In this document: positions 7,501 through 64,000 of the stretch, in pieces | Position numbering within the stretch: position 1 is the stretch's first letter | Layout of the letters: each line of letters opens with the position of its first letter | Assembly (NCBI GenBank): GCA_013306675.1 | Contig: JABLUY010000156.1 | Coordinates: forward strand, 28,668 to 92,667 | DNA length: 64,000 bases | Reading direction: 5' to 3' | From: Thraustochytrium sp. TN22 | Taxonomy: Eukaryota > Sar > Bigyra > Thraustochytrida > Thraustochytriidae | Notes under the pieces: model-generated | Told to the model about the DNA's origin: nothing | The model's database searches: none | What the model saw: the letters and a program-made list of their open reading frames with translations, nothing else | Translations under genes and position numbers: made by a program

Positions 7501-10374
7501 GTTGTTCTCGGACGCTACGTCGTCGACTAAAGCGTCGCTCTTCGTCTGTACGAGCCCGGTTGGGCCCTTCTCTACTCCGCCGCTCGGTGCTTTGGCCTCC
7601 TCGAGGTCCGATTCTCCGCGGATGTGGTCCTCGTCCGGTCTTTCAGGCTCGAGCACCTCGGCGCCCGCGGCCCCGCACTCCTCCTCGCCTACGATGGTGG
7701 CCTCGCTGCCGCTTTCCGAGGCGTTGTCGCCTTCAGGCATCAACACGCGCAGGTCGTCCGGCTCCGGCTTAGTCTCCATATAATTGGTGGCGCTGGCCGA
7801 AGCGGCACTGGCCGAGGCGGCACTTGGCAAGGCTGCACTGGACGAGGCGTCCGCCGCCTCGCTGTCAGGCCGGTTTGCGCTCACGTCACTGCTGTTGCTG
7901 CTGCCGCGATCGCGAGAGCACGAATCGGACCCGCACTCGTCGGAGCGCTCAGAGGCTAGAGCAGAGGTGGACTCCCCCGAGGTATGCGGCGCAAGCGCGC
8001 TCGCGCGGCGTTTGATACAGACTGTCAAATAGCCGGATGAAACAGTACGCACCTCGATGCGGTGGTGTGAGAGGCGGGGCGCAAAGTCGGAGTCGAGCTT
8101 CGCGAGGATATAGTCAACATCCTGCGGCCGCGTAAAGAGAGCGAACTGCGCGATAGACCCGTAACGAACCTTGAGATCAAAGGGCGCACCGGCGGCGACG
8201 ACGGTGCCGCGCTCCAGAATGGCGACCTCGTCCGACAAGGACTCCGCCTCGGCCATGCTGTGCGTGGTATGCACGACAATGCTGTGCTCCTTGATGGTCT
8301 CGATGTGCCGCCACACGAAGCGCTGATTGATGGGGTCCATGCCCGTCGTGGGCTCGTCCAACAGGATGAGCGCCGGCGCGCCGAGAGTCGCGAGACCTAC
8401 GGAGACGCGCCGGCGCGCCCCGCCAGAGAGCGCGGCGACCTTGTAGTTGCGCAAGGCGTGCAAGTTTAAACCGCGCAGCCAGCGGTCCACGACCTCCGAG
8501 ACATCCTCCGCCGGCACCTTGCGCAAGCGCGCCCACAGCTTGAAGTGCTCCGCCGGAGTGAGCTCGCTATAGAGCGCGTCATCCTGCATACAAATGCCGA
8601 GCGCGACCGAGGCCAGGGGCTGACCGTTGCACCAGATCGCGCCCGAATCCTGGACGAGCTCACTGGAGAGAATGCGCACAAGGGTGCTTTTGCCGGCGCC
8701 GTTCTTGCCGAGCAACGTGAGCACGCGACCAGGCTCCACGTGCAGGCTCACGGAGCGCAGCGCCTGCACGCGACCACGGAGACGGAAACCGAAGGCGAGA
8801 CTTACGTTCTCGATGTGCAGGCCCGTGCATGGCGCGAGGCTGATGGGCGCAGCACGTAGGCCGCGCGTCGACTTTGCAGCCCGCGGTGGCGCAGCAGCAG
8901 CAGCAGCAGCAGCAGCAGGGGCAGTAGCAGCAGGGGCAGCAACGGGGCCGTCCTCGTTCTCGCTGTCGCGATGGGCGACGGTGCTCTGGTCGGCCCCAGG
9001 ACCTTCCGCGCGCAGCGCCTTGGCGTTGGCCCTGCGGTTGCTCCGGCGAAGCTTGTACCTGCGCACGAGACGGTGAGCGCGCACGTGCGTGAGCAGCAGC
9101 GTGACGCCAAGGTAGAACGCGCCGAGGAGGGTCATGAAGCCCAGGCAGGAACCGAAGGATGGCGTGTGGAAATCGAGCGAGGACACCAACTTGACCTGTG
9201 CCGGGTTGTCCAGTGAGCACTCGTCCGCTACCTCGAACGACGATGTGGACCCGACGGAGGACGAGCTGGTGCTGGCGTCATAGTCACCGCCCTGGACCTG
9301 CACGTAGAGGACGTCGTCGGGGAGCGCCAGCGTCTCACGAATGATGGCCGGCGTGGCATCATAAAAGAAGGAGAGTGCATCGTAGGGGCTGCCACCCATG
9401 AGCAGAACGGTGCCTACGACCTGAGACCAGATCTGCGCGAAGTGGAAGGTGGGGAAGAAGAAGAGCACGAGCAGGCGGAAGGCGCCGGCGCTGGAGACCT
9501 GTGCGTTGTCCCAGATGGAGTCCAGGCCCGACTCAAGATACCAGCAGCCGGTGTACGTGGTGGCGGCGTCCAAGATGAGGTAGGACTCGCAGGGCTCCAC
9601 GGAGTCGCACTCGTAAGAGTCGCGTTCGGTGTGGTTGGCGCAGGCGTTGTATGTCGTGTTCTCCGGTTGGAAGTAGGTGGGCGCGGAGTAGTCGACAAAG
9701 AGCGGCGTGAGCGTGACGGCAAAGTAGGCGCCGAAGAGCACGAGGTAGAGGAGCACGAGCAGGTCCGAGCGGCGCGTGAAGCCGACAAAGGTCGACACGG
9801 TGAAGTGGAAGGCGAACATGACGGCGTTCGAGCAGACGAAGAGTGAGGAAAAGATGGTGCCGAAGGAGACGTGCTTGAAGATGGCATCCGGGACAGCCTT
9901 GGCCAGACCGGCGGCCACAAGCGTCGCCACTAGGTTGAGCGCCGCGAAGAGCGTCCACCAGCTGAGCCAGAAGGCACTGAAGCCGCGCTTGCTGCCGAGC
10001 AGCGTCACGAGCAGGCCACTGTTGGCCTCGTCCTGGATGAAGACCGTGGACAGAACGCTGGAGACGATGGGTCCAGCCGCCAAGATGGGCGCGATGAACG
10101 GATTGAAGGAGTGATCATAGTCGATGTCCAACGAGTAGCCGCAGGCGTCGTAGGCCGAGCTCTTGATGCCTCCGTTGGCGTCCACGTAGAACTCGTTCAC
10201 TGCGAACGTGAGCAGCACCATGACAGGGGCCGCCAGCAAGTAGAGCACAGCGAGCAGCTGGCGCCTCAAGAAGACGCGCACGCACTTTTTGAGCAGCGCC
10301 ACATAGATGGCCGCGCCCTCGCCAAGCCTGCTCTCCAGGCGCAGCACCGCCTCCGCGGCCCGCGGCCCCAGCAT
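4531..10374 (-). CDS. ABCA-type full-size ABC transporter
   Basis: Full transporter with the order TMD1-NBD1-TMD2-NBD2, a likely lipid or sterol exporter or flippase of the A subfamily (family knowledge). TMD1 begins with a hydrophobic helix near LLAVLYLLAAPVMVLL and is followed by a large lumenal loop with NTT/NHT glycosylation sequons. NBD1 has Walker A GKNGAGKST, signature LSGG and Walker B LILLDEPTTGMD. A long acidic Ser/Glu-rich linker joins it to TMD2. NBD2 has GPNGSAKST, MSGGMQRR and VVILDEPTTQLD. The Walker A Gly before Lys in NBD2 is Ala. The frame is open to an ATG at 10635 (2034 residues), but the first 87 residues are Arg/Ala low-complexity from a GCC-rich tract. I therefore prefer the ATG at 10374 (MLGPRAAEAV), giving 1947 residues. 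No intron is seen. Confidence 0.9.
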   Translation of the reverse strand: MLGPRAAEAVLRLESRLGEGAAIYVALLKKCVRVFLRRQLLAVLYLLAAPVMVLLTFAVNEFYVDANGGIKSSAYDACGYSLDIDYDHSFNPFIAPILAAGPIVSSVLSTVFIQDEANSGLLVTLLGSKRGFSAFWLSWWTLFAALNLVATLVAAGLAKAVPDAIFKHVSFGTIFSSLFVCSNAVMFAFHFTVSTFVGFTRRSDLLVLLYLVLFGAYFAVTLTPLFVDYSAPTYFQPENTTYNACANHTERDSYECDSVEPCESYLILDAATTYTGCWYLESGLDSIWDNAQVSSAGAFRLLVLFFFPTFHFAQIWSQVVGTVLLMGGSPYDALSFFYDATPAIIRETLALPDDVLYVQVQGGDYDASTSSSSVGSTSSFEVADECSLDNPAQVKLVSSLDFHTPSFGSCLGFMTLLGAFYLGVTLLLTHVRAHRLVRRYKLRRSNRRANAKALRAEGPGADQSTVAHRDSENEDGPVAAPAATAPAAAAAAAAAPPRAAKSTRGLRAAPISLAPCTGLHIENVSLAFGFRLRGRVQALRSVSLHVEPGRVLTLLGKNGAGKSTLVRILSSELVQDSGAIWCNGQPLASVALGICMQDDALYSELTPAEHFKLWARLRKVPAEDVSEVVDRWLRGLNLHALRNYKVAALSGGARRRVSVGLATLGAPALILLDEPTTGMDPINQRFVWRHIETIKEHSIVVHTTHSMAEAESLSDEVAILERGTVVAAGAPFDLKVRYGSIAQFALFTRPQDVDYILAKLDSDFAPRLSHHRIEVRTVSSGYLTVCIKRRASALAPHTSGESTSALASERSDECGSDSCSRDRGSSNSSDVSANRPDSEAADASSSAALPSAASASAASASATNYMETKPEPDDLRVLMPEGDNASESGSEATIVGEEECGAAGAEVLEPERPDEDHIRGESDLEEAKAPSGGVEKGPTGLVQTKSDALVDDVASENNSREQLVEGLSALIQWIQSPESGVREFGVSNTTFEEVFLSIVDRPRGSEDEEDEEETAAAAAAAAAGGKLAIDDDEEPSKRAVFESAQLTAVPVAAAERKRSLRKATSENMSVIMVDLPSSRTAASEPPRTYSRQGEELSIKAGSAPPLRSVVQVPTLADQGILHLQSVEVTNKGAWLWFSQVRALTSKNFRVRLLHWESMAKWFVVLAMLVAITLVEASNSELRSDVLALSIFLCLVTVLVVPFGVFERTEGMLQIFKLHRCTFGTLATSEAFFLWVVIFFVTLVALSVFFGIALGGDVHSESLFFLCNKNIAGCRCVLSTLRDSRDRQLEILQTITELTIRDTPFGEVTETSKFWYGHLKNKHGTWWMLLGIAFGFALGLAGLALAVNASCRTHRAAAFWGGVFLLLWGILPPVLLLRGLTDVLYLPEDATCTVATFGSLDVTLATGSSACAQRRLLESDPAVGLALTNGFSMSMYDFFRAGTRTEVINRTLTESSSAYTFSEDCCSDNSSFFQANIGIMFAGALIALVVGLALFWLRTFPPESVLVAERILHEWRHRLCHRVNPRYRSNPIREHRFQGDEKDANDEDDDDASDVEREDTEDRGCVEYERSRVRAILGGDFRHVPPEKREPIVISNLSKVYYTRWGRVNALRNMNLAVAPGEVVGLLGPNGSAKSTLCKLLNGAVTPTRGEAYVNGLNVETQMTRVFSHLGYVGQRDCLWRGLTAREHLKMVLRLRGVIATDDERDMLLNEVATRLDLEEYLDRKVSAMSGGMQRRLSIALAMLGSPRVVILDEPTTQLDPSARRKVWECIQYFRQTYNCAIIITTHDMDEADELCDRVCVITKGRCRAVDTPQGLKDRFGNGFRLIVKVSPGRRREAFDFVKKHVYGQAVLGNCLNNIMRIFFPRDGFDLASAFVTLFSERARTEGYIQNFLLNQATLHDVFMNIAGLDEAHLEDIGYLNEHAHSLVVKLLRHRGVYRPQQPAVTRA

Positions 10375-11299
10375 CCTCGCCCGCGCCCGCGCCCGCGCGC
10401 GCGCGCGCCGCGCCGCGCCGCGCCGTGCCGCGTCGCTGTTCAAAAACTCCAGCAGATGGCCCAGCCTCAGCCCAGCCGGGTCGGAGGCGTCGTCCCGTCC
10501 ACAGTCGGACGCCGCGCCGCGCCGCGCCGCGCCGCCGCGCCGCGCCGCGCCGGCCGCGCCGCGCTCGCGCGCGCGACCCCGCGGCGCCCGGCCGCTTGCG
10601 TTTTGCACGACGGGAGTTCGGACGGAGGGAGGCACTGGGGGCGACGGCGGCAGGAAGCCTGAGCCGCCTCGGGCTCCAGGTCGGCTCGCCCGGGTCCGAC
10701 GCGGCCTTGGCGGCCGGGCACGGTGCCACGGGCCGTGGCGGCGTGGCCGACCGCCGGCGGAGTCGAGCCGAGGCCCCTGGCAGCCGCCGCGCCGCGCAGA
10801 CGGTGCCTGTGAGTTCGTTCAATGACTGAGGTCGCAGCGACTTGTGAGATGAGTTGTCTGCTCACACGTGACACAGTGGCGCGAGACACGGCGATCCCAG
10901 CACGCGTCACGGCGGCCTCAGTCGCCCCGCGCGGGCCTTGTTCGCATCAAGTTGCGCTTCGAGCAGCACAGGTTCCCCAGCAACGTCGGCGAGCGCAGCG
11001 CTGCCTCGAGGCGAGGCGAGTCCGGCAACGAGGAACTTGACGCAGGAAGAAGGCGAGGCGAGATGCGACGCGAGGCGAGCCGCGTACGCGACAGGCCGCG
11101 GCACCGTGCACGGTGCCGGCACCGTGCACGATGGCGCGTGCTGGCTGGGAGAGAATAGGAGAGAGAGCGATGAAGAGGAGCGGCAGACTCGGCGGGCGCG
11201 GCGCGGCGCGCGGGCGGGCGCGCGCGCGGCGGCGGCGGGGCCGGCGCGCGCGCGGGCGAGGGCAGGGAGAGCGCGTGGGGCGCGGGCCGGGCGTGGAGC
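10375..11299. promoter_or_regulatory. Divergent GC-rich promoter region between ABCA-type gene and HCF101-like gene
   Basis: Shared 5' region of two divergent genes. It holds GCCGC/GCGCC low-complexity at about 10390-10575. It also has a 16-bp perfect palindrome GCACCGTGCACGGTGC at 11101-11116, followed by a second copy of its left 12 bases at 11119-11130. An ATG at 11170 is out of frame with the HCF101-like protein. No other gene is supported. Confidence 0.5.
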
Positions 11300-49326: not shown

Positions 49327-50505
49327 ATGAAGGCTTGCCTCTGGATCGTGGGAGCTGTGGCGTTCGTCTTTGGTCTGCAGTCCGTGCAAGGCGAGCTCTC
49401 AAACAAGCATGAATTGGAGCTGGCAGCCAAACTTTATGGCCTGCTGATCCACTACGCGGGCGACGGCGCCCTGGTACCTACGGAAAATGAGCGGTGCCTT
49501 CGCGGGCTCGCTAACGTGGTCGCGTTTCTCGGCTTCACGTATTGCGCGGACCAGCATCTTCCCAATAGTCTCCCGGATGAAGCAAAGGATATCGCGGGGT
49601 TGGCTTTGCCAGGGAACGACTACTACGAGTATTTTCCTTCCAAGGTTCATCCAGATTACTTCTCATCCGGAGCGGAGGAAGCGCTCGATGTAGAGAAGGC
49701 GCTCCAGAAGTACGCTGCAGCGGCGGTCGTCGACGACGGCTCCAGGGAGTATTTTCTCAAAGAGGCCCGCAAATATGCCAAGCAGTTGAAGCAGGGATCA
49801 ACTTCTCCCGGAGACGCAAAGAACTGCAATGGCGAGGCTGAAACGCTCATCTCTGAAATTGGTCTCCAGAGCCACTTCGTGGACTACTTCCTGGATAAGG
49901 TAAATTTACTGGAAGAGGCTACCGTGGACGCTCCTGGAAAGAGTAACACCCGCCAGTACACGACCGTGACGAAGGGCTCTGGGGACACGACAACGACGAC
50001 CACAACCACCATCACCACCACAACGACCGCGGGTGCTCACGGTGGCACCGGTCCAGCGGGCGAAGCTGCGGTGAAGCCCGGCGCAAGTCCATGCATGGCG
50101 CAGCGGCTCAACCAGCTTGCGCAACTGAAGTTCGAGGCCGCAGAAAGCGAGCAGCGGGCGGCGGCGGCGGCGGCAGCAACGGCGGCAATGACTCCCCACA
50201 CGCTGCCCCGGGAGCCGGGCACTCCATCGCACATGCCGTGGAAGACGACGACGACGACCAAAACCGAGCCTTGGACAGCTTCGCGCGACGATTCTTTCGT
50301 GCAGCAACAGGAGGAGCAGGATGGTCGCGGGGCGGCCGAGACGGTTCGAGCCAGCCTTCTTCGCACGTTTTCAGGCCAGAGCGCCGTTGAAGACGACGAC
50401 GACGACGATGACGACGACGATGAGTTGGCACAGGTTTTCCTTGAGCAGCAACGGCATCAACTCCAGCACCAGCACCACCATAACCACCAGCGTTACCTTC
50501 GCTGA
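49327..50505 (+). CDS. Secreted companion protein 1 (Thr-rich linker, TEPW module)
   Basis: 392 residues, family not recognised. Signal peptide MKACLWIVGAVAFVFGLQSVQG. A helical domain with paired Cys (about 25-215) precedes a long Thr run (TTTTTTTITTTTT). A helical CMAQRLNQLAQLKFEAAES segment follows, then a second Thr stretch leading into KTEPW, then an EDDDDDDDDDD tract and a His/Gln-rich tail. The TEPW module and the linker organisation recur in the secreted proteins at 54.7 and 61.0 kb, so these are paralogues despite low similarity in the N-terminal domain. The next gene, on the opposite strand, is a MACPF protein. Start ATG 49327 is set by the signal peptide. Here the module's end is diverged (ETVRASLLRTFSG instead of LRGS..R). 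Confidence 0.75.
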   Translation: MKACLWIVGAVAFVFGLQSVQGELSNKHELELAAKLYGLLIHYAGDGALVPTENERCLRGLANVVAFLGFTYCADQHLPNSLPDEAKDIAGLALPGNDYYEYFPSKVHPDYFSSGAEEALDVEKALQKYAAAAVVDDGSREYFLKEARKYAKQLKQGSTSPGDAKNCNGEAETLISEIGLQSHFVDYFLDKVNLLEEATVDAPGKSNTRQYTTVTKGSGDTTTTTTTTITTTTTAGAHGGTGPAGEAAVKPGASPCMAQRLNQLAQLKFEAAESEQRAAAAAAATAAMTPHTLPREPGTPSHMPWKTTTTTKTEPWTASRDDSFVQQQEEQDGRGAAETVRASLLRTFSGQSAVEDDDDDDDDDDELAQVFLEQQRHQLQHQHHHNHQRYLR

Positions 50506-51566
50506 TTGCTCAACAGCAAAGTCGAGCTTCAGGACAACATGACTCGTCCCCCCCTTGCTGAATGTAGTAAGCCATGAGTATCTTTCGTTTTCAGGCGCTG
50601 CCTCTCAACCCGCCGCTCCAGCTGGCTCACCAAGCGTTGGCTTCACACCCAGTGCGCGCGAGCCCTAGCGATCTTCGACCGCTAGCTACCCAGAGTTGAC
50701 ATCGCGCCATGTTTCACCAATTAATCAAGCAAAGGTCCAAAGGAAAGCGAGCATCAATCCGAAGCACAGGACGCAAGCACGTTTGCTGCGATGAGCGACT
50801 TGCACATCCATTGTCAGTACTCGCCGTGCGGTTGGCTCTTGTGTGCGCAAGCTTCGGCGTGTAGGAGACTTCCGGCTCGTAATTTTGTGCAGATCACGTG
50901 GCGCGAACGTCCACGCCGCCGCGCTCATACTTGTATGCCAACGCGTGTTCCCTTCTTTGAGCTGACCTGTGCAGTCCTCGGCTAGCCGCATGTCTCAAAT
51001 GGTGCTTCCACTCGGCCGGCGTGGCATGCGGCTGTCGCTCACGCGGTGCAGATACGTTTGGAGACTGAGACTGGTCTGGAAGAGAGGAGTCAGGATCTGT
51101 TTCGAGGCCGCGGCGGCTTGGGGTGAGTGAGCAATGCCGCACTCCTGGAAAACGAAGAGAGAAGAGAAAGAAAGGCTCGCGTCCGACTGCCGAACGCTGG
51201 CCACCCTTCCTCTCCTGCTGCGCGACCAACTTGAGTGCCAGCGCAGACTCGGTACCACGCGGTTGCAGGTCTGACTGTGAGCGCGTCTCGGCCCGGCCAT
51301 CCACCCCCCAAGACGCACCCGGCCGCCCTCTTTTGGGTGTGTGGCAACTATGCATGATTCTCGCGCTCGCATGCCAGCTTGCTCCGTCCAACATGGAGCA
51401 GAACCAAGTGCTTTGGGTGTGCATCTTCTTTGGGCGAGTGAGCTCTAGCCGAGTGCCACTCGGCTCTTTTGAAAACATGTGATTTGCGCCCTTGACGCCA
51501 TGTTTCACCGGCATCGTCCATTTATGGCTCACATTCCAAACATCCCTTCTGGAGGTACCAGGTAGG
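50506..51566. other. Intergenic between two convergent secreted-protein genes
   Basis: About 1.06 kb. The 13-mer GCCATGTTTCACC occurs near both ends (about 50706 and 51497). Open frames on the minus strand here look random and lack any family feature. No gene is supported. Confidence 0.5.
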
Positions 51567-53570
51567 CTAACTATTATAATTAAAGGTCCACTTCTGACAT
51601 TTCTCGTTGCCGCATCGTTTCACGTAGGCTTTTTGATGGTGGGCGCACAGGCATGCTTCACTGTCCGCAATCTTGATCTGCTTTAAGTTGGAGTCGTATC
51701 TCCAAATCATACCCGGATGGCCGAGTACGGGAGGCTCCATTGAGAAGTGCTCCCATTGATTGTGCTGGTCGGGGTTTGATCCCTTCCAGAAAAGTGCGTT
51801 GACACCAACGACGGGCTTGAGAAAGCCCTCAGGCGTCAGATACCACTTTTGGTTCGGCATTCCATTGCAGACGGCCATATGGGAGATCTTGGGATCGGAT
51901 TTCAACAGCTCCAAACAATCTTCGGTGCTGTATTCTTCACTGGTGAGCGTCGCCAGCGGTAAGACGGTGAATTCCTGCTCCTCGCAGGCGGACTTGATGA
52001 GCAAGTTGTCGTCGCTATCGCGGTACATGCAGTCTCGGTCTCTCGTCTTGATGGCATGCGAAAGGTCGTAGGAGAGTCGAAAATCCGAGTCAGGATCGTA
52101 CCTTGTCCACAGTCTGGTGCCGCTTGAGTCAGGCCGAACGCGATGACCGCGATGATAGAAGCTCTCGAGGTGGCCAGATTCATGCCAGATGAAGATCTGA
52201 GAGGCGCCGTCGAGACCGTTGCGGTCGTTGAGCTCGTAGTCACCCCCGTTGCACTCGGTCATGCTGAGATAGTGGTCCCAGCTTGCGTCTCCGGCGACAT
52301 GCATGCAATAGAGAAGTCTGCCGTTCCTTCCCGCGACATTCTGCATGATGACGACTTGCCGGTTTGCAATGTCGAGTGGAACGCTCGGCACGAATCCAAC
52401 CGCCGCCAGCCTGTTCTTATCGAGCTCCTTAGTGACGTACTCGCCAAGTGCGAAGGCTGTCTCGTTGAGACTGGACTCGTTGTAGCGCTCGCGCATAAAC
52501 TCGTTCGTCAGAAGAACGTCCAAGAAAGACACAATCTCGAGACTGTCGTCGATCAGGAGCGCTGGGCTGTCCTCGAGCGTGCTGGAGAACTTGGCCAGCT
52601 CTTTCTGCGTGAAGTTGGCCGGGATAGTCGTCCCACCGAGCACGTACTTGTCCTGGTTGAGAGACATGGCTTGTTCGCGGTTGGTGGTGTTTGAGTGGCG
52701 CTCGTTTGCCGTGCAGACGCCCACGCGCACGCTTGCGCTCACACCCCCGGCGAGTGACCGATACTCTGCCTCAACAGATGAAGTGATGCACTGCCGCAGC
52801 TTCTCTGAAGACGTCTTCTCCTTGCTCGAGAGGGAGCTGGTGTGCTTGTAGACATTGGTGACCTGGCCGCCGACGCGACACTGTCTCACGAGGTAGCCTC
52901 CGTACGATTTGTAGAACATCTGTAGCAGGTTGGTGTCGTGAGGGGACTCCACCATGAGATCCAGCAACTTGATCGCTCCGACCGTAGGCCGCAGTCCCCA
53001 GTGCTCCGTGTTGAACATGCCGATGGACTGCAGGTAGACAGCCCGAGAGATGAAGGAGTCGCTGTTCTTGGCCGTCTTGAGCGTATTCTCGACCTCCTCG
53101 TTGCGGGTCATACCAAAGCTGACCGTCACCTTCGCTGTGCTGAACAGCTGGTTCATCTTGGCGGAAATACTCGCTTGCACCTTGGTGTTCATCTTCTTGC
53201 CCATCTTCTCCGAGTACTCCTCGAACGACTTCGACGTCTCCGTGTCCTGAGCCACCGACCCGGTGGTCTCTGGAGTATAGCCGACGTTGTCCGGCAAGGC
53301 GAACTCTGGGTTATTCGGGTATACATCGCAGTCCTCGTAGGTCAGCTCGAAGAAGGGCGACAGCGGCTTGCCGGTCGTCACGTCGAATCCCACGCCCACG
53401 AGCTGGGCGCCCGGCGTCGGCATCAGCGTGCACGCGCGCTCGTGGCCAGGCTCCTGCTGCGCCACGAGGGCGTCCAGCACGCTCGCGCGCAGCGACACGC
53501 CTCGCACCCCGTCGTAGCTGGCAGCCACCGCGAGCAGCACCACGCGGAGCAGTGCCCGCACTTCCATCAT
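51567..53570 (-). CDS. Secreted MACPF (perforin-like) protein 1
   Basis: 667 residues from ATG 53570 (MMEVRALLRVVLLAVAAS, a signal peptide). A MACPF fold is inferred from the GVGFDVTTGKPLSPFF start and a Ser/Lys-rich strand-helix block (SFEEYSEKMGKKMNTKVQAS, VTVSFGMTRNEEVENT). The diagnostic segment FYKSYGGYLVRQCRVGGQV keeps the YG and the GG hinge but has Gly where most members have Thr/Ser-His. The C-terminal half (about 390-667) is Cys- and Trp-rich with repeated Q.W/IWRYDS-type elements, suggesting a beta-trefoil or similar glycan-binding domain. Family knowledge: MACPF proteins oligomerise and insert beta-hairpins into membranes. Target and role here are unknown. Several NxS/T sequons are present. 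Confidence 0.78.
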   Translation of the reverse strand: MMEVRALLRVVLLAVAASYDGVRGVSLRASVLDALVAQQEPGHERACTLMPTPGAQLVGVGFDVTTGKPLSPFFELTYEDCDVYPNNPEFALPDNVGYTPETTGSVAQDTETSKSFEEYSEKMGKKMNTKVQASISAKMNQLFSTAKVTVSFGMTRNEEVENTLKTAKNSDSFISRAVYLQSIGMFNTEHWGLRPTVGAIKLLDLMVESPHDTNLLQMFYKSYGGYLVRQCRVGGQVTNVYKHTSSLSSKEKTSSEKLRQCITSSVEAEYRSLAGGVSASVRVGVCTANERHSNTTNREQAMSLNQDKYVLGGTTIPANFTQKELAKFSSTLEDSPALLIDDSLEIVSFLDVLLTNEFMRERYNESSLNETAFALGEYVTKELDKNRLAAVGFVPSVPLDIANRQVVIMQNVAGRNGRLLYCMHVAGDASWDHYLSMTECNGGDYELNDRNGLDGASQIFIWHESGHLESFYHRGHRVRPDSSGTRLWTRYDPDSDFRLSYDLSHAIKTRDRDCMYRDSDDNLLIKSACEEQEFTVLPLATLTSEEYSTEDCLELLKSDPKISHMAVCNGMPNQKWYLTPEGFLKPVVGVNALFWKGSNPDQHNQWEHFSMEPPVLGHPGMIWRYDSNLKQIKIADSEACLCAHHQKAYVKRCGNEKCQKWTFNYNS

Positions 53571-54677
53571 GGCCGCACGAGCTAGCTCGCTTCCCGGCTT
53601 GCTTGCTTGCCTCACGTTGATGCCATTTTGCTGCCCTGTCCCTCGGGGGAGCCTGAGGAGAAAGGGCCGCCTGCGATTGCTTCCCTCCTGCGTGCTCTGC
53701 TGCCTCCCTCGCTGGCGCGAGTGCGCTGTGCTCGGCGAGCCTCGGCTGGGGACAGGCACTCGAGTCTGAGAGCTCGGCACCGTCGCGTACTACCCGTAGT
53801 ACTTCAGGCTCGGCTGTCACTGGCTGGCGGTTTCCACGAGTGCGCGGCCAGTGCGTGCAGCCTGCACTGGCAGGCAGGAATGCGCCGAGAGCGCATCAAC
53901 TGCCTACCTGTCTGCCATGCTGCCATGAGTTCGCGTCGATGCATGCACTGCATGCCTTGCCCAGCCAAACGCCCGTCAAGAGGGCCGAGCGCAGCAGCAT
54001 CTGCATTGCGCGGTGCTCGCTGCCGCCATCGCCGACAACTCACCCGGGCAGCTCCAAGGCCAGGCTACTACCAAGCTAGGCCAGGCCAGGCCAGGCCAGG
54101 CCAGGCCGACTCGAGGCCAGCTCGAGCTCGGAACTTCGGAAGGCGGGAGGGTCCTCGCGCGCGCCGCGCGCCCGCTCGCGCGCGCGCGCGGTGCTGTGCT
54201 CGGCGAGCCTCGTGGTCGGCCGCTCCACGCCTCTGTGCAGTGCGCGCCTGCTGCTAGCGAGGAGTACGAGATCGGGCAGGTGAGGGGCAAGTTCACTGCA
54301 CGCGCGCGCGCTGCCTCGGCTCGCCCGTTCGCTGCAGTGCAGCAGACCGGCCATAGGTCGTTGAGCTCGGACAGTGCGCTGATGGCCGCACGACTGTCGA
54401 GTGGGAAGATCTCGCTCGCCCGCGCCGAGCGAGCTGAGCGGCTCGGCCGGCCCGACCCCGGCGGCACAGGCTGCATGCCTTGCACTCACTCGCCTGCAGC
54501 AGCCGGTAGGACTGTCGAATGGGAAGATCTCCCTCGCCCACGCCGAGCGAGCTGAGCGGCTCGGCCAACTCTCGGCGGCACATGCTGCATGCCATGCATT
54601 CACTCGCCCGCAGCAGCCGGCAAAACCGAATAGGTCGCAGCAGGAACGAGACGAGAGCACGAAGCTGAGTAGGGAGA
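53571..54677. repeat. Intergenic with 118-bp direct repeat and (CCAGG)n run
   Basis: A CCAGG pentamer run lies at about 54078-54110. A 118-bp unit beginning ACTGTCGAGTGGGAAGATCT is present in two tandem imperfect copies starting at 54393 and 54511, the second ending just upstream of companion gene 2. No gene is supported. Confidence 0.8.
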
Positions 54678-55850
54678 ATGCGGTGCTCACTGTCAGTGCT
54701 ACTTACCGCGCTCGTCGCGTTGGCGACGCTGGGAAGGACGCAAGCGAACGATGAGGATGATCTCGTCAGACTCCTGCAACCCTATTTTGACTTCGTATTT
54801 ACGTGGCTTCCCGCGGCGGAGACGGCGTGCAGGAATAAGAAGGAGAAACTGCCGAATCTGGATGATTTGTCGACGCATGATGAACGCTGGTATGGCATTT
54901 ATCGCGACGATAGAACTCATGACGCGCATATTGACAAGCATTGGACACCTGTAAGTAATAGACTGTTCGATCTCAATCTGAGGAAGGCAGGTAACTTGTG
55001 CGCGGAAGGCATGAAGATGGCGGAAAAAAGTTTGCGGGGGACAATTGATGATCCAGAGGCGTTAGCAGAGGCGTATGCGAGGATTGCGGCAGACCAAGAT
55101 ACGGCGACACTCAGCCTGGTGGTTAACGGCGTCGGCTTTCGAAGATCTGACTTCAAAAAAGCAGAAGTATATCCTGGAAACGACGCGAACCTGGACGATA
55201 TCTTGGACTATATCTCAAAGAACACCAAGAGGCGATTATGGCCGAAGAGGGCATGGTGCCTCAAGAATGACGACGTCCAAGTCACGAACTTCGTAAAAGC
55301 AATCAGGGTGCTCGCCTACGGCTTTCACACTCGGTTCTTTTATGGCGACAAGGTCTGGAAAAGAATGATCAGCGAAGCCTGGAGAAAAATGGATGGAATT
55401 GAGAAGCGCAGCTCGCTCTCTGAGTTTATTCCCAGGCCTGACGCGAGAGAAGAAAACCTTCTCGAGATGGACGAGGACTGGTCGGACCCCGCTTTAGCCA
55501 CGCACACCATTACAACAACGACCACGACAATGACCATGCCGGCTGTTTCAACGATGCATACAACGACCTCGGCCGAGGCCACGGCACGGTGCGCTGCACT
55601 GGCCAAGCAGATAAAGAGCTTCGCCCATAGGATGGCAGAGGACTCGGGCATGCCCACCATGCAGGCCTCGCCCTACATGACCACCACCACAACCGAGACG
55701 GAGCCCTGGAACCCGGATGCCGACGCCCAGATGCGGCAGGCTCGAGTCGGCTCTGCAACAACACTCCGTGGCAGCGTCCGCGACAGTCTTCTCCACATTG
55801 CTCTTGTGCATCGCGATGAGGTCCAGGACAGCAACGAGAACACAGCCTAG
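54678..55850 (+). CDS. Secreted companion protein 2 (Thr-rich linker, TEPW module)
   Basis: 390 residues, family not recognised. Signal peptide MRCSLSVLLTALVALATLGR. The helical domain begins DDLVRLLQPYFDFVF, matching the LVSILQPYFNFVV of companion 3, and contains several Cys. A Thr/Met linker (ITTTTTTMTM) precedes a CAALAKQIKSFAHR helix. The C-terminal module reads TTTTTETEPWNPDADAQMRQ ... ATTLRGSVRDSLL, nearly the same as in companion 3. The coding sequence is distinctly less GC-rich than the flanking housekeeping genes. It is on the same strand as, and upstream of, MACPF gene 2. No intron is required. Confidence 0.78.
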   Translation: MRCSLSVLLTALVALATLGRTQANDEDDLVRLLQPYFDFVFTWLPAAETACRNKKEKLPNLDDLSTHDERWYGIYRDDRTHDAHIDKHWTPVSNRLFDLNLRKAGNLCAEGMKMAEKSLRGTIDDPEALAEAYARIAADQDTATLSLVVNGVGFRRSDFKKAEVYPGNDANLDDILDYISKNTKRRLWPKRAWCLKNDDVQVTNFVKAIRVLAYGFHTRFFYGDKVWKRMISEAWRKMDGIEKRSSLSEFIPRPDAREENLLEMDEDWSDPALATHTITTTTTTMTMPAVSTMHTTTSAEATARCAALAKQIKSFAHRMAEDSGMPTMQASPYMTTTTTETEPWNPDADAQMRQARVGSATTLRGSVRDSLLHIALVHRDEVQDSNENTA

Positions 55851-57119
55851 CTAAGCCCGCGAAAGCTTTTCTAAAGAATCTCAAATACGTCTCATGTCAT
55901 TCGCTCAGCCTCGCGTGCCTGGGCTTGTGCGAGCTCAGCACCATGAGCCAGCCAGGTAGAGAGACGCGCAGCACAGTAGCGGGACCGAAGCATCTCAATA
56001 GACTTGCTTTGCGAGGCTCGCGGGCGTCCGAGTGAAGCGCGTGCCTCCCTTTCTTGGTGCAGGCGCAACCAAGACGCGGCGCGGCTACGCTTCAAACTTA
56101 GGCTTGTCGAGCGAACCGCAGCACACAACACGCGCTTCTTCTTGGCCAAGAGCGAGGAAAGTCAAACAGATGCTCGGTCGATCCCGTCCGGCCACGGCCC
56201 GAAGTCGTGTTCGGTCTCGACGCAATGTGCAGCTGGCAGCTCGCGCATCAGCAAGCGCCTAGGTAGGGCAAACGCCCCCGCCCCCCCCACAAACCTCTCG
56301 ACAACTGCAAGGTCTCCGAGTCAGACTTTCGAGGTGGTCACGGTCCGTCGACACCGAGCACTCTGCCGTCGACCCGAGCCGTGCTTCCTTGCAGGCTGAC
56401 ATGACAAGCAACCGCTTCGAAAGTTGTTTCGCCGATCGCACGAGCCCGACCTCGGCGTCAGCTCGAAGCGCGAGGCTGCCAGTGCCTGCCGTGCACGGGC
56501 GGCCTTGCAGTGCGTGAGCGACTCGGGCTCGAGCCCTTGGCTGGGGCGCTCTCCGTGGCCACTCAGACCTGCGGCTGTCGTGCTGACTTGAAAGACATCA
56601 TTTCCGAGCACAGATGTCCGAGTCGGAGTTTCGCCGTCTGCTGCAGTGCAGCGAGCAAAACGCGCCCGCGCGGACCCTGCGTCAGAGTGCAGGGCGAGTC
56701 GCAGGCTCGGTGCCGTGCCATCACCAGGGCCAGTGCCCCCCCTTCAGGCTGGGTAGACGGAGTCATTCATCAACGCTTTGCTGCCCGACAACTGGCTGGT
56801 GTGCGCGTGCTCGGCGCGCAGACCGAGAAGGGAAGCGAGTACTACCGTGGCACGGCCCCTGATGACAGTGAGGACCAGACCAGGCCGAGCACTGCTGGCG
56901 GCTCGGCCGAGGACGGCCCCGGGAAGGCAGGCAGGCAGGCAGGCTGGCAGGCTGGCTGGCAGGCAGGCAAGCGCGATGGATGCAATCAAACGCCCAATAC
57001 GCGGGGTACATACATCCTGGCTGGGCAGCGGGCAGCTGCGTGCGTCTCAGGCGCAGGCCGGAAGAGCCAGAAGCTGGAAGGAATTCGGAAGGCGTGGCCG
57101 CCGGGTCCTGCACGACGAG
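55851..57119. repeat. Intergenic with (GGCA)n run
   Basis: About 1.27 kb between companion 2 and MACPF 2. It has an AGGC/TGGC tetramer run at about 56926-56970. Upstream in-frame codons precede the MACPF start but show no signal peptide and contain the tetramer run, so they are not counted as coding. No other gene is seen. Confidence 0.6.
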
Positions 57120-59906
57120 ATGGGGTACAGCAGGATGTGGCGGACGCTGGTGCTCGTGCTCGCGGCGCTCATGGCGCTCGCGGAGACCGCGCAGGGCGAC
57201 CACGCGCTTGAGCACGCCGCCGACTACGAGCTCGGCATGAAGAAAGGTGGCACGGACAATGGCGACCAGGCGACAGCATCTTATCATGACGAGGAGAGCG
57301 ATGACGAGGAGAGCGATGACGGGTGGCCATCAACAGAATCAGACATCGCGAAGACCGTTGCGGAGGCGGTGCTGAAGTACATGCGCCCGGTCGTGACGAC
57401 GACGACAAGTATGACTACACGGCACCACAATCACGAGTCGCCCGTGCAGCCGCCGAGAGTGCCCCCGCCCACGGAGTCGCCCACGGAGCCGCCCACGGAG
57501 CCGCCCACGGAGCCGCCCACGGAGCCACCCACGGAGCCGCCCACGGAGCCGCCCACGGAGCCGCCGACGCTGCCGCCGACGCTGCCGCCCACGGAGCCGC
57601 CCACGGAGCCGCCCACGGAGCCGCCCACGGAGCCGCCGACGCTGCCGCCGACGATGCCGCCAACGGAGCCGCCCACGAAGCCGCCCACGGAGCCGCCCAC
57701 GGAGATGTTCACGGAGCCGCCCATGGAGCCGCCCATGGAGCCGCCCATGGAGCCGCCCACGATGCCGCCCCTGACGATGCCGCCCCTGACGATGCCGCCG
57801 CTGACGCTCCCCCCGAAGCTGAACGAGACGTTGTCAACAGGGGCGCCGACAGTAGCTCCCTCGAAGGCGAGGACGGAGGCGCCCACGAAGCCACCGAAGG
57901 CGATGGAGTGCAGGCATACGACTCTGCCACACGTGGGTATGGTTGGCGCAGGCTTCGACGTTGAAAAGGGGCAGAGCATGACGTCCATCTTTGACTTCAC
58001 GTACGACACGTGCCAGACGCTGCTCTACAAGAACGAGCGCGTGCGCCTTCCGGACGGTGTGACAGTATACGTGAACCGCGCGACAAGCGCGTCATGGTCA
58101 ACTGACACGTCCACGTCCTTCCGTGAGTACGCCGAAAAGCTGTCGGACAAGCTGAACGTGCAGGTCAGCACGTCAGTGAAGGCGGACATGTCGTACATGG
58201 GGTTCAGGATGGACTCCCAACTAAGTGTTTCCATGTCGAGGAATCAGGAGATGCAGGAGGTGAGAGGTTCCATCAGCAAAGCCGACACGACGCTGATGCG
58301 ATCCGTGCTACATCAGTCCTTGTACCGATTCAACCTAGAGTCGTGGGCCGTTCCCCTTCGTCCCCAGCTGGTGGGCATGCTGGAGCGCATCTACAAAACA
58401 CCTGGGGACGAGACAAGCCTGAGCTCGTTTTACGGCGCGTACTCGGCGTTCTTCGTGACGGCAGGCGAGATCGGTGGCCAGATCACGCAGGTGGGCACGT
58501 ACGAGAGCACGAGCTTGGCGTCGAGCTATGCCACTCGGTCGCTGCTCGAGACATGCGTATCGACCAAGCTGGACGTTTCTATGGGCTATGGCTTGTACAG
58601 CGGTGAGGTCCACACATCCGTTGATCATTGCACCGAGGAGATTGCCGAGACGACCGGGCGCTCGGAACAGCTCGTGGCGACCTCGACGCAAAAGGTCATG
58701 ACGCAAGGTGGCGACGGCACTCCGATTGTGAAGATTGACGCCGAGGTCGTGGCGAAGTTTTTTGCCAGCCTGCAGCACAAGGCAACGGTGCTGCCTGAGA
58801 TTGGTCTCAAGCTCGGCTACATTCCGTACATGCTCCGCGCCAACACCTGGCTTCACGCACAGCCAAATTGGTCACGAGAGAAGGCAAATGCGGTTGCCAA
58901 GACGTTGGACGACTTCTTCCTTTCGCACTACGCAAACATCAAGAAAAACCTGCCACACGTTGACCCTGACAAGGCTGAGGCCTCGGTTGCCGTGAGTATC
59001 GAGGGCAATGCCGTGCTTCTCGTCCAGTCCTCTGGGGGAATCTGGGTGGACGGGCGTCAGCATGTAACCTGTCTGGAGGCCGATATCAACCTGCTCGAGA
59101 TGAAGCGCTGCACGGGCGGCGGGGACGATAAAGGCCTCGGGCAGATGTTTGTGCTGCATGGCACCGGAACCAAAAATGGTGTACTGGAGTCACTGCGTGC
59201 GCCGGGAACCTGCATCACCAACTCAACGAACAACATGCTGGCTCTCTCCTCGTTTTCTTTCGACGATGAAAAGGTCGATTCTAGATGCCTGCGATTCTCT
59301 TGGGACCCCGTCGACCGCCTACTCAAGGACACCACGGGCAAGTGCTATTTCCAAAATTTGCTGGACCACCGGGTGTACGGAACCGAGCACTGCCAAAAGA
59401 CTACCCACTTCCTGTGGTCCCTCCAGCAGCCTCAAATGCTCCAAGATGCCATCAACGCATGTCTGAAGGCGCACATCCATCGGCCGAGTCACCTGTGGAC
59501 GCACACAGATTATGGCTGCAACAAGCATGACCGTGCCTACCGCTGGCTTGTCACTGACGAGGGCTACGTGGTCAGTCTCTACAAGGAAGCGGATGGAATG
59601 GCGCTCACATGGGAGACCTGGGACGGCCACAACCCAAATCCGGACGATGGGGACGAGCCGCCCTCCTTCCTGAGACCTCAGATGCGAAACTCTGGCAACA
59701 ATGGTCAGCTGTGGAGATGGGACCCGACGAACCAATCCTTCATGACACGGCGGGAGGATTGGTATGGCTGTCTCCGATCCAACAACTGGGGCGATGACTT
59801 TTATGGTTACCATCGCACTCTAGTGGATCGAGCGTGGTCGAAATCATGCAACGAGGAGCGCCACAAATGGAACCGCATCGTGCTCAACAGGGGCGATTTG
59901 CTCTAA
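57120..59906 (+). CDS. Secreted MACPF (perforin-like) protein 2 with Pro/Thr/Glu repeat stalk
   Basis: 928 residues from ATG 57120; the signal peptide lies around MWRTLVLVLAALMALAE. An acidic stretch, a short Thr run and a long stalk of PPTE/PPTL/PPME tetrapeptides (about 115-250) come before the MACPF region. That region aligns with the first MACPF protein: GAGFDVEKGQSM, STDTSTSFREYAEKLSDKLN, SVSMSRNQEMQEV, and FYGAYSAFFVTAGEIGGQI with the GG hinge kept and the YG-T-H element degraded. The C-terminal half is Cys- and Trp-rich with GQMFVLHG, LRFSWDP and GQLWRWDP, echoing the QIFIWHES and MIWRYDS elements of the paralogue. The stalk and the Thr run are shared in style with the companions. Role unknown; membrane insertion is family inference. 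Confidence 0.8.
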   Translation: MGYSRMWRTLVLVLAALMALAETAQGDHALEHAADYELGMKKGGTDNGDQATASYHDEESDDEESDDGWPSTESDIAKTVAEAVLKYMRPVVTTTTSMTTRHHNHESPVQPPRVPPPTESPTEPPTEPPTEPPTEPPTEPPTEPPTEPPTLPPTLPPTEPPTEPPTEPPTEPPTLPPTMPPTEPPTKPPTEPPTEMFTEPPMEPPMEPPMEPPTMPPLTMPPLTMPPLTLPPKLNETLSTGAPTVAPSKARTEAPTKPPKAMECRHTTLPHVGMVGAGFDVEKGQSMTSIFDFTYDTCQTLLYKNERVRLPDGVTVYVNRATSASWSTDTSTSFREYAEKLSDKLNVQVSTSVKADMSYMGFRMDSQLSVSMSRNQEMQEVRGSISKADTTLMRSVLHQSLYRFNLESWAVPLRPQLVGMLERIYKTPGDETSLSSFYGAYSAFFVTAGEIGGQITQVGTYESTSLASSYATRSLLETCVSTKLDVSMGYGLYSGEVHTSVDHCTEEIAETTGRSEQLVATSTQKVMTQGGDGTPIVKIDAEVVAKFFASLQHKATVLPEIGLKLGYIPYMLRANTWLHAQPNWSREKANAVAKTLDDFFLSHYANIKKNLPHVDPDKAEASVAVSIEGNAVLLVQSSGGIWVDGRQHVTCLEADINLLEMKRCTGGGDDKGLGQMFVLHGTGTKNGVLESLRAPGTCITNSTNNMLALSSFSFDDEKVDSRCLRFSWDPVDRLLKDTTGKCYFQNLLDHRVYGTEHCQKTTHFLWSLQQPQMLQDAINACLKAHIHRPSHLWTHTDYGCNKHDRAYRWLVTDEGYVVSLYKEADGMALTWETWDGHNPNPDDGDEPPSFLRPQMRNSGNNGQLWRWDPTNQSFMTRREDWYGCLRSNNWGDDFYGYHRTLVDRAWSKSCNEERHKWNRIVLNRGDLL
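57450..57820 (+). repeat. 12-bp coding minisatellite (CCCACGGAGCCG)n in MACPF 2 stalk
   Basis: Tandem 12-bp units encode PPTE, with variants for PPTL, PPTM, PPTK and PPME, and the frame is kept throughout. It forms an extended O-glycosylation-prone stalk between the signal peptide and the MACPF domain. Confidence 0.9.
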
Positions 59907-60971
59907 GTTAAAAACTAAGATTTCAGATCATTGACACCTGGCTTGCTCACATAAGGGATGACACCGGGACGGACCTCCCGCTGAGTACAATCACGCTGGC
60001 ATACGAGCGGCGATGCAGACGAGAGTGCCGTGGCCGTGCACAGCCCAAGCGTTTTCTCGCAATCGCTGAGGGATGGCCTTCCGGGCAAGCAAAGGCCGCC
60101 GAGGCCGTACCCGTGGCCGTTCAAGGTTGTTTGCAGCACTCATGTACCGCCTGTGCGTCCTTTCGCAGTCGCCGAGGGACGTCAATCCGTCCAAGCAAGC
60201 CTTGGCGAGGCACGGCTGTCTGCGCCATGTTTGAGTCGAGACTCGCGGGTAAGATTGATTGTGCCAGGCCGTGGCCATTGCCTTGATGCAGATAGACACT
60301 GGGCACCCGACACCCTGACCGGCTGCCAGCTTGCCGCGCGCCTGTCCTGGCCGCAGTGACTGTACTTGTGCACCCCCGCGCAGCCCGGCCGCGTGCATTC
60401 AAGGCTGGGCGATCACGCGCCGCGGGTCCGAGTCTAGCCGAAAGGTTCGGAAACTGACGGCCGAGCACGGCCTCGCCGACCGCCGAGCACGGCCTCGCCG
60501 ACCGCCGAGCACGGCCTCGCCGACCGCCGCGGCCGGCCTTGCAGTGCAGTGCACTGGCGGCTTGCATCGGCAGCCTGAGGCGGGGCTTGCTTCCTTCACG
60601 TGCGAATGCATGCGAAAAGGCTGGTACCCGCGCGAGGCCGGCTGTTGGCCGGGCCCGCCGGGCCCCCTGTCTGAGCTGAGTCGGAAGTGACATGTAGGAA
60701 GCAGGTGCAGTGGGAGACGAACAACGAGGAGCACGGCTAGCGTTTGATCCTCGTGCCGTACTGAGGCCGCCGAGCACACGGGCCACGCGACCGGATGTGC
60801 TCGACGGTAACGGTGGCTTGCTATTCGCTTGTGTTTGGCCTTGGTCCTGTGTTCCCTGGCGCGACTAGCACCGAGGCAGCAGAGCAGACCTGAGACGCAG
60901 GACACGCAGATTGGACGTGCTCGCGCGCTCATTGCCAAATCCGTCGCAGCAAGGGCGAGGCGAGGAAGAGA
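59907..60971. repeat. Intergenic with 22-bp tandem repeat
   Basis: A 22-bp unit beginning CCGAGCACGGCCTCGCCGAC repeats three times exactly at 60461-60526. The rest has no supported gene. Confidence 0.85.
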
Positions 60972-62336
60972 ATGCGGCTCGCGAGAGTGCTTATGGCGGC
61001 TATGGTGGCGGCGGTCCTGGGGCTGGCGCAGGCGCAGGCGGACCTGACCGAAGAAAAAGCCAAGCGCACCGCAGAAGAAACCAAGCTCGTCTCGATCCTG
61101 CAGCCGTACTTTAACTTCGTCGTTGAGGTACTGTTTTGGAATGAAGATGCGTGCCTAGCGAGGTTTTATGGCGGCGCGGGCATCGCGCTCCAGGGGGGTG
61201 CACGGGATTTCGAGGTCCCGGCCCCAAGGTCAGACGTTCTACTGGGTACAGATATCATGGACCTTTGCGCAGCGCAAGCCGACGTCCTCGAGTGCGCCAA
61301 AGCACGACATCTCCTCCAAGCTTTTGGGGAGGAGCTGAAACGCGGGATAGCTAAGGTCAGAAACTACGATACGCCGGCCCAGTCTGGTGCCAGGGACCTC
61401 TGCAAGAGGGACCACGAGGCACTAATTAGCATGACGAGATATCTTCGGGACGCTCTCAAGTCTCCTGATGCAGAAAAGCCGAAGGAGTACAGAAAATTCG
61501 TAGACCGGTCCCCAGCGCCTGTACCGCTGGAGGCGAAAATTGCGGCCGTCCCGAATTGGTGTCTTGATGAGCATCGGATCAAAGACTTTCAGGACATGGT
61601 CAAACTGCTGGCCAACGGTCTGCGCTCCAAGGCGTTCTTCCCGGCTGCCTGGGACACGCTCTTTGAGAGCTCAATTGAATTGTTTGACCAACTGCAAGCT
61701 AGTAAGTTGAAGGTCGATTTCGCAGGCATCGCCTCATCTCTGCCCAGCTGACTTTGCAGGATTACAGGTCGCCTCGAACGGATGCTTACCCGCGCTACGC
61801 GCAGCGGCGCGATTTCCAAGGGAAGCTTGCCCGATCAAAATGCGCCTCCCACTCGTCCCAGAAGGGACGCCGTCAGCTATCCCAAATTCCTGGAGACAGG
61901 CAACAGTTCGCCGGGCTCTTCTGCAATCACCACTGCGACCACCACCACAACGAGGACGGTCACAACGACCATGCCAGGCACCGACGCGTCACAGATGCAC
62001 ACCTTCGCAGCTCCGACGGCATGTGACACGCAGGTGGAAAGACTAAAGCGCCAAATACGTTCCCAGGAAGCCGAAGGAGCGACCGGGGAGGCGAATCTGC
62101 AGAGTCAGGGTCTCGGCGCCGGCTCCGTGCATACCTGGCAGCACCCGATGCCTTACGTCACCATGACGACGACTGCGACAGAGCCCTGGGACCCCAGCAC
62201 GGAGAACCTCATGCAGCAGGCTGAAGGCGGCGCTGCGACACTCCGTGGCAGCCTCCGCGCCGGTCTCTTGAGTGCCCTGGCGCACCGTCACGAAGCCAGC
62301 GCCGGCGCCGAGGACTCGGCGGACATCTACGCCTGA
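60972..62336 (+). CDS. Secreted companion protein 3 (Thr-rich linker, TEPW module), two exons
   Basis: Exons 60972-61701 and 61768-62336 give 432 residues. Signal peptide MRLARVLMAAMVAAVLGLAQAQA. The helical domain (LVSILQPYFNFVV ...) has four or more Cys and mirrors companion 2. Unspliced, the frame stops at 61751. Removing a 66-bp GT-AG intron joins it in frame to the Thr linker (ITTATTTTTRTVTTT) and a CDTQVERLKRQIRS helix. The C-terminal module (TTTATEPWDPSTENLMQQ ... ATLRGSLRAGLL) follows, almost identical to companion 2. The family alignment is the main support for the intron, because both paralogues have the linker and module on one chain. It follows MACPF gene 2 on the same strand. Confidence 0.72.
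61702..61767 (+). other. Predicted spliceosomal intron (66 bp) in companion 3
   Basis: Consensus donor GTAAGT at 61702, acceptor ATTACAG ending at 61767, and a CTGAC branch-like element at about 61748-61752. A nearer acceptor (TTTGCAG at 61759) would give the wrong frame; the 61767 acceptor restores it. Confidence 0.7.
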
Positions 62337-63819: not shown

Positions 63820-63872
63820 CCTCCGCCATCCTTGGGCCCATGCCGGGCTCGTCCCCGTCCACAGCTCTGGCC

Positions 63873-64000
63873 GGCGCGAGTCTCCTTTCGATGCCCCGGC
63901 GCGAGTCTCCTTTCGATGCCCCGGCGCGAGTCTCCTTTCGATGCCCCGGCGCGAGTCTCCTTCCGATGCCCCGGCGCGAGTCTCCTTCCGATGCCCCGGC
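63873..64000. repeat. 25-bp tandem repeat array continuing past the window edge
   Basis: Five copies of a 25-bp unit beginning GGCGCGAGTCTCCTTTCGAT occupy 63873-63997. The last two have a single T-to-C change (CTTCCGAT). The array begins about 50 bp after the TAM41 stop and runs off the end. Confidence 0.95.

Follow-up and report, generated by a model that had tools for sequence, protein, structure and literature searches.

Fungal aegerolysin families that have MACPF partners contain some members with no MACPF gene next to them, and six (putative) aegerolysin/MACPF gene pairs have a 5'-5' arrangement (PMC9505663). In the lectin-bearing pore formers CEL-III, LSL and Pomacea perivitellin-2, a lectin docks the pore domain, and the lectin of LSL is a beta-trefoil (PMC10377782, PMC7082926). 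For stramenopiles, the relevant passages of a 2017 paper place MACPF proteins in most Pythium species and in none of the other stramenopiles, give PYU1_G000106 as one with a predicted signal peptide, and describe the Pythium proteins as most similar to apicomplexan ones, with no well-supported clade (PMC5635513). The open-licence literature searched gave stramenopile MACPF proteins only from Pythium, on the strength of those same passages (PMC5635513), and contained no report of MACPF, perforin or pore-forming proteins in thraustochytrids or labyrinthulomycetes. The main text of a paper on the ectoplasmic-net proteome contains none of the terms perforin, MACPF, lectin, ricin, pore and toxin (PMC12221091). 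The present analysis concerns a cluster of two MACPF genes (MACPF-A and MACPF-B) and three companion genes (c1, c2 and c3) in a 64,000-nucleotide stretch of the Thraustochytrium sp. TN22 genome. The stretch, referred to as the window, corresponds to positions 28668-92667 of contig C62 in an assembly of 37.9 Mb and 453 contigs.

Judged from their sequences, MACPF-A and MACPF-B could be glycan-docking secreted pore formers that are co-secreted or co-sorted with a lineage-specific protein family, TEPW, to which all three companions belong; this reading is evenly poised between acceptance and rejection. It draws on the domain composition of MACPF-A, the homology of MACPF-B to it, the close adjacency of the two families, a composition at third codon positions that most members share, and a short motif common to the companions and MACPF-A.

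Layout of the cluster and its MACPF proteins

The five genes follow one another in the order c1 (+), MACPF-A (-), c2 (+), MACPF-B (+) and c3 (+), and all begin with a hydrophobic, signal-like N-terminal segment, as judged by hydropathy. The alternation of companions and MACPF proteins, all secreted, which the original prediction had drawn from the DNA sequence, is thereby borne out in order and coordinates. Gaps between genes within the cluster measure 1,061-1,269 bp: MACPF-A and c2 form a divergent 5'-5' pair 1,110 bp apart, c1 and MACPF-A lie 3'-3', and the remaining two neighbour pairs are in tandem. No other supported gene had been noted between the five, and nine scanned frames, out of 17 of at least 100 amino acids lying mostly in the gaps, gave no Pfam match at E ≤0.1. 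The gaps of the gene pairs have no long repeat in common except a GC-rich 43-mer (63% alike), and their comparison does not support a recent duplication of a companion-MACPF unit. Beyond the N-termini, no segment of the frames tested (c3 exon 2 excepted) is hydrophobic enough for a membrane helix, the highest 19-residue hydropathy after residue 35 being 1.50 in MACPF-A and 1.21 in MACPF-B. The cluster is flanked by EHD and TAM41 genes, and the window is for this reason regarded as eukaryotic. Its GC content (57-78% per 2 kb) is higher than the thraustochytrid values of 43-47% (PMC10101102, PMC12258536) and 57% (PMC5854782); the first two sources give thraustochytrid genome sizes of 36-66 Mb.

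MACPF-A (51567..53567, -) is a predicted secreted protein of 666 amino acids that matches the Pfam MACPF model PF01823 with 42.6-44.7 bits, the upper value belonging to the domain at 52554..53087 (-), against a curated cut-off of 21.5. MACPF-B (57120..59906, +), likewise predicted to be secreted (928 amino acids), is by itself a borderline MACPF, scoring 19.1 and 20.1 bits as long frames and exceeding the cut-off, with 22.8 bits, only when its domain (58230..58721, +) is scanned singly. Residues 254-917 of MACPF-B align with MACPF-A at 24% identity (E 1e-40), nearly the whole length outside the long TEPP-repeat linker of MACPF-B, and its C-terminal half is therefore homologous to that of MACPF-A. 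The linker, with the unit PPTEPPTEP, is encoded by a 12-nt tandem repeat of 25.5 copies (57465..57770, +). The two proteins can thus be kept as MACPF paralogues, as first proposed, through this homology and the score of MACPF-A, with MACPF-B qualifying by Pfam as a domain piece only. The C-terminal halves, originally described as Cys/Trp-rich, required correction: in MACPF-A at least, this half appears to be of the ricin-B lectin type, its beta-trefoil (51588..51929, -) matching PF00652 with 30.5 bits as a C-terminal piece (cut-off 29) and with 25.8 bits, under the cut-off, on the long frame. An internal profile comparison with two sequences a side did not show a second trefoil in tandem. The MACPF signature Y/F-G-X2-F/Y-X6-G-G, taken from PMC9505663, is degenerate in both proteins, with four of the five fixed positions kept in each: MACPF-A reads YGGYL-x6-GG (L for F/Y) and MACPF-B reads YSAFF-x6-GG (S for G).

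By sequence, the top PDB match of MACPF-A is MPEG1 (E 0.015, about 100 residues). A PDB profile search with the alignment of MACPF-A and MACPF-B placed circumsporozoite proteins first (E 0.0044, through the linker repeat of MACPF-B) and MPEG1 next (E 0.041). Among NCBIfam models, MACPF-A weakly matches the BSAP5a pore-forming toxin (E 8.7e-7; 28.1 bits against a cut-off of 500). Protein database searches with c2, MACPF-A and the alignment of the two MACPF proteins, each scoring 8,000 candidates, found no homologues; the window's own proteins were also unlisted, so this database may hold few close eukaryotes. No homologue was confirmed on viral contigs, and none of the MACPF alignment in bacterial or archaeal genomes.

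The TEPW family

Whole-genome searches with c2, c4, c5, c7 and the C-terminal module of c3 as queries, together with a DNA pattern for TTxTEPW, found six TEPW genes: c1, c2 and c3 in the cluster, and c4 (contig C233), c5 (C332) and c7 (C374) elsewhere. The pattern has seven matches in the genome (one for its reversed control), comprising five members and two chance matches on C171 and C198, where no listed frame of at least 80 amino acids contains TEPW; c4, which carries a TEL variant, is absent from them. Weak matches on C326, C65, C427, C34, C353, C211 and C453 were set aside, none of five motif patterns being present. The frame adjoining c5, c6 (L010:2749-3831, contig C332), is not counted as a member, having neither a TEPW module nor a clear signal peptide; its resemblance to the N-terminal domains of the family is marginal (best score 26.9 bits, with 1 of 500 shuffles reaching at least 27).

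All six proteins start with a signal-like segment, contain a region rich in Thr and carry a single Cys in their C-terminal module, and several end in an acidic tail. The predicted product of c1 (49327..50505, +, an open frame with ATG) has 392 amino acids and its TTxTEPW core at 50254..50274 (+), and that of c2 (54678..55850, +) has 390 amino acids, a paralogue on C233 (E 1.5e-19) and its core at 55689..55709 (+). Companion 3 is present as predicted but had to be divided into two in-frame pieces: exon 1 (60972..61701, +), matched by c4 with E 3.3e-7, and exon 2 (61768..62336, +), which holds the TEPW module with its core at 62169..62189 (+). A stop at 61749-61751 lies in frame within the apparent intron (61702..61767, +), and a frame-keeping GT...AG intron of 66 nt is the simplest reading of this split sequence.

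A tree of the C-terminal modules separates c1, c5 and c7 from c2, c3 and c4 (fork support 89/91, which is under the starred level). In view of this split, both subfamilies are probably present in the cluster, c1 being closer to its relatives on C332 and C374 than to the companions beside it. The C-terminal part of c1 is matched by c5 with E 1.7e-11 and by c7 with E 3.4e-5. Homology of the N-terminal domains links c2, c3 and c4 (c4 with c2, E 1e-18; c4 with c3 exon 1, E 5e-10), and the N-terminal domain of c1 matches none of the three significantly (best E about 8 against c2 and c3). Of the architecture that the three companions were thought to share, the signal-like segment, the Thr linker and the TEPW module are therefore retained, and the N-terminal domain of c1 is unmatched. 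That the module belongs to no recognised family agrees with the Pfam scans, in which no model scored above its cut-off for any of the six members and none matched c1, c2 or the c3 pieces at E ≤0.01; the weak sub-cut-off matches of c7 (Msap1, E 0.0038; HeLo, E 0.011) are not considered meaningful. Aegerolysin (PF06355) was found neither in c1, c2 and the c3 pieces (E ≤0.01) nor in c4, c5 and c7 (E ≤1), and NCBIfam gave no model at E ≤0.1 for the four sequences scanned (c1, c2, c3 exon 1 and c7). This suggests that TEPW is a previously undescribed, lineage-specific secreted family.

Pairing, codon composition and a common motif

Companions do not always lie beside a MACPF gene, a point on which the original prediction had asked to be tested: in this genome, tblastn with both MACPF proteins at E ≤0.1 found no MACPF in the surroundings of c4, c5 and c7 (about 45 kb, 50 kb and a whole 12-kb contig, respectively), leaving three of the six TEPW genes unpaired, which counts against a two-component system. 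Nor are MACPF-A and MACPF-B the only two such genes in the genome, since contig C23 holds a tandem pair of near-identical 548-residue proteins (identical at 527 positions; L058:478-2124 and L058:3656-5302) that flank a pirin-type frame. The pair was first found through weak matches in the genome search with MACPF-B (E 0.058 and 0.12). One of the two proteins aligns with the MACPF region of MACPF-B at 24% identity over 313 amino acids (pairwise E 2e-5; 6e-4 with MACPF-A), and both have a signature-like YGQFV-x6-GG and, by eye, signal-like N-ends. They are called MACPF-like rather than MACPF because the Pfam evidence is weak (13.2 bits in one, MACPF not listed for the other) and a PDB search with a C23 protein found nothing. 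They are without the lectin half, and neither the family queries nor the TTxTEPW pattern gave a TEPW match on C23. The MACPF-like genes found number four, two of them paired (MACPF-A and MACPF-B) and two unpaired on weaker evidence; this count and that of six TEPW genes are lower bounds, because no more than the top candidates are scored in a search, and each exon is read separately. With half of the genes found in each family unpaired, pairing is obligatory on neither side, and TEPW proteins are not obligate MACPF partners. The joint function that had been proposed from repeated pairing is weakened by these unpaired genes; adjacency, codon composition and the common motif remain in its favour, and on these sequence features it is still plausible.

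When genes were placed uniformly and independently, with the MACPF pair treated as one event, 1,854 of 2,000,000 draws (about 0.001) put a random MACPF gene no more than 1.3 kb from one of six random TEPW genes, a figure that is silent on function. GC content at third codon positions (GC3) is 0.64-0.77 in the five cluster genes (measured from 57870 onward in MACPF-B), 0.68 in c4 and 0.65 in c5; it is 0.77-0.93 in eleven flanking or nearby genes, 0.80 in c6 and 0.87 in the unpaired C23 pair.

A [VL]RASLLDAL-type motif at the C-ends of the companions (ETVRASLLRTF in c1, 50338..50370; 55770..55802 in c2; 62247..62279 in c3; all +) recurs as VSLRASVLDAL at residues 24-34 of MACPF-A (53466..53498, -), directly after the signal-like segment. 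With an 11-column profile made from c1-c5, these residues score 20.7, and MACPF-A is the only non-member to reach this value when all frames of at least 100 amino acids from the window and twelve other loci are scored (202,591 places). None of 10,000 shuffles of its residues 17-60 reached 20.7, and a 13-column profile gave MACPF-A the same rank among 200,835 places. The profile is soft, because members left out in turn score 8.5-17.1; the C23 pair scores 8.6. A nine-codon DNA pattern, whose codon choice is blind to some forms of the motif, has 18 matches in the genome against 11 for a reversed control, and only two of the 18, those in MACPF-A and c4, encode RAS-x-[LM]-DAL, the strict form. One other match on C233, within a long hydrophobic frame, was judged unrelated.

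Some further features were recorded in the same material. Near c4 on C233, a 666-residue frame (L009:422-2419) has 16 WRKY19-type zinc finger repeat stretches (277.5 bits). In the window, a 2034-residue frame (4534-10635) contains two ABC-transporter nucleotide-binding stretches, and a 25-nt tandem repeat (63871-64000; 5.2 copies, 99% matches) reaches the very end of contig C62. The region C124:26703-41142 contains a full-length PfaA-type polyunsaturated fatty acid synthase frame of 3044 amino acids (omega-3 PfaA match, 2540 bits), in which one section of the model is matched several times, the pattern expected of tandem acyl carrier protein domains. It also contains, on the opposite strand, a 2083-residue frame that matches the PfaA model, the two matched parts being separated by about 2.6 kb. 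Together with the genome size, the PfaA-type synthase is indicative of a thraustochytrid, though the GC content of the window speaks against this. A 5691-residue open frame at C410:25857-39995, with four matches to about positions 180-470 of the PfaA model, is read as a large polyketide-synthase-like gene.

Candidate mechanisms and comparison with known systems

If MACPF-A and MACPF-B are glycan-docking pore formers, the lectin half would bind glycans on the membranes of prey, competitors or hosts, the MACPF domains would oligomerise, and their helical clusters would unfold into a membrane-spanning beta-barrel pore. In the TEPW proteins, a variable Cys-bearing N-terminal domain would be joined by a Thr-rich linker, probably O-glycosylated, to a conserved C-terminal module that contains a single Cys. 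The most likely link between them and the MACPF proteins would be a shared secretory route or extracellular material, for which the common motif may serve as a sorting or docking tag. Shared sorting or co-secretion is favoured over an obligate binary toxin because both partners occur alone. A narrower proposal is that of a hitherto undescribed secretion module of protists, in which the tag, placed C-terminally in the companions and at the N-end of mature MACPF-A, gathers lectin-type MACPF proteins and TEPW proteins into one granule or complex, the latter acting as Thr-rich carriers or docking partners that can stand in for one another; it is tentative and considered unlikely.

Several observations weigh against glycan docking combined with co-secretion. 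MACPF-B has no Pfam lectin match, its own PDB search did not return MPEG1, and it is without the motif (score 5.0); the form of the motif in c7 is also weak (10.5). The motif itself spans 9-11 residues, is not amphipathic as a helix, and was spotted by eye before testing. With a first, 16-column profile, in which c1 stood one residue off register, MACPF-A ranked 24th of 198,201 places and 8 of 5,000 shuffles reached its score. The GC3 of MACPF-A (0.77) is no different from that of the two neighbours, out of eleven, with the smallest values, an overlap at the edge of the two ranges; that of c7 is 0.82, and the pirin frame between the C23 pair has 0.75; low GC3 may be a mark of low expression or fast evolution only.

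Neighbourhood without partnership, in which two fast-evolving secreted families lie side by side and came to alternate by chance through ancient duplications, would fit the high divergence of MACPF-A and MACPF-B (24-27% identity), the scarcity of shared repeats in the gaps, the different subfamily of c1 from c2 and c3, and the fact that the alternating order is just one of ten possible orders. Adjacency at the observed distance is nevertheless improbable by chance, and both the motif in MACPF-A and the GC3 of most members are shared, which makes this account rather unlikely. A multi-component pore system in which TEPW proteins serve the MACPF proteins as target-membrane binders, chaperones or activators, as an analogy with aegerolysins would have it, is aided by the spacing and orientation of c2 and MACPF-A, the layout of the six fungal (putative) pairs (PMC9505663), by the motif common to MACPF-A and the companions, and by the TEPW genes that flank each of MACPF-A and MACPF-B. 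Yet the unpaired genes on both sides and the companions' lack of an aegerolysin match speak against it, the 3'-3' and tandem arrangements of the other pairs are unlike the fungal ones, and MACPF-A, with a lectin half of its own, would need no binding partner; such a system is considered unlikely.

The companions could instead be self-protection (immunity) proteins against the MACPF proteins, for which the alternating layout would be suitable and whose linkers, Thr-rich and mucin-like, might provide a coat for the cell. The frames tested show no membrane anchor by hydropathy, however, and paralogues exist without MACPF neighbours, so that this role appears very improbable. Non-lytic MACPF proteins exist, and the degenerate signatures of MACPF-A and MACPF-B would agree with a fold reused for adhesion, matrix or developmental roles. 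This is distinctly unlikely, as both the GG and a large part of the domain show conservation, and the combination of MACPF and lectin would suit a membrane-docking pore former. Should the preferred reading of docking, co-secreted pore formers be true, these proteins would suggest a means by which thraustochytrids, as marine decomposers, might attack other cells. The motif common to TEPW proteins and MACPF-A offers a directly testable link, and if that link fails, a new lineage-specific secreted family beside an unusual perforin would still be left.

Among described proteins, MPEG1/perforin-2 resembles MACPF-A in the alignment of residues 49-146 of MACPF-A with MPEG1 residues 21-116, and in MACPF-A a signal-like segment is likewise followed by a MACPF domain. 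MPEG1 is an animal protein, whereas MACPF-A and MACPF-B are from a protist; the PDB searches made with each protein singly showed no similarity to MPEG1 beyond the aligned residues of MACPF-A, and none in MACPF-B. MPEG1/perforin-2 has a C-terminal membrane helix, unlike MACPF-A and MACPF-B by hydropathy. The ricin-B type half of MACPF-A stands where MPEG1 has a MABP domain (PMC7593815). With the fungal systems of ostreolysin or pleurotolysin A and pleurotolysin B, the locus has in common that a MACPF gene is adjoined by a gene for a small secreted companion, in one pair with the same 5'-5' orientation, and that paralogues of the companion lie away from MACPF genes; it differs in that the companions gave no aegerolysin match and MACPF-A bears its own lectin half. 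Among lectin-bearing pore formers, CEL-III has a pore domain of another kind, and perivitellin-2 carries its lectin and MACPF on two separate chains. The pore domain of LSL resembles aerolysin-type toxins (PMC10377782). The Pythium protein PYU1_G000106 has a MACPF domain and a predicted signal peptide, as do the proteins described here by their signal-like N-termini, and a lectin half is not mentioned for it in the relevant passages (PMC5635513). Two MACPF genes with C-terminal halves of apparent lectin type and two more distant MACPF-like genes in a thraustochytrid would extend the range of MACPF proteins in stramenopiles.

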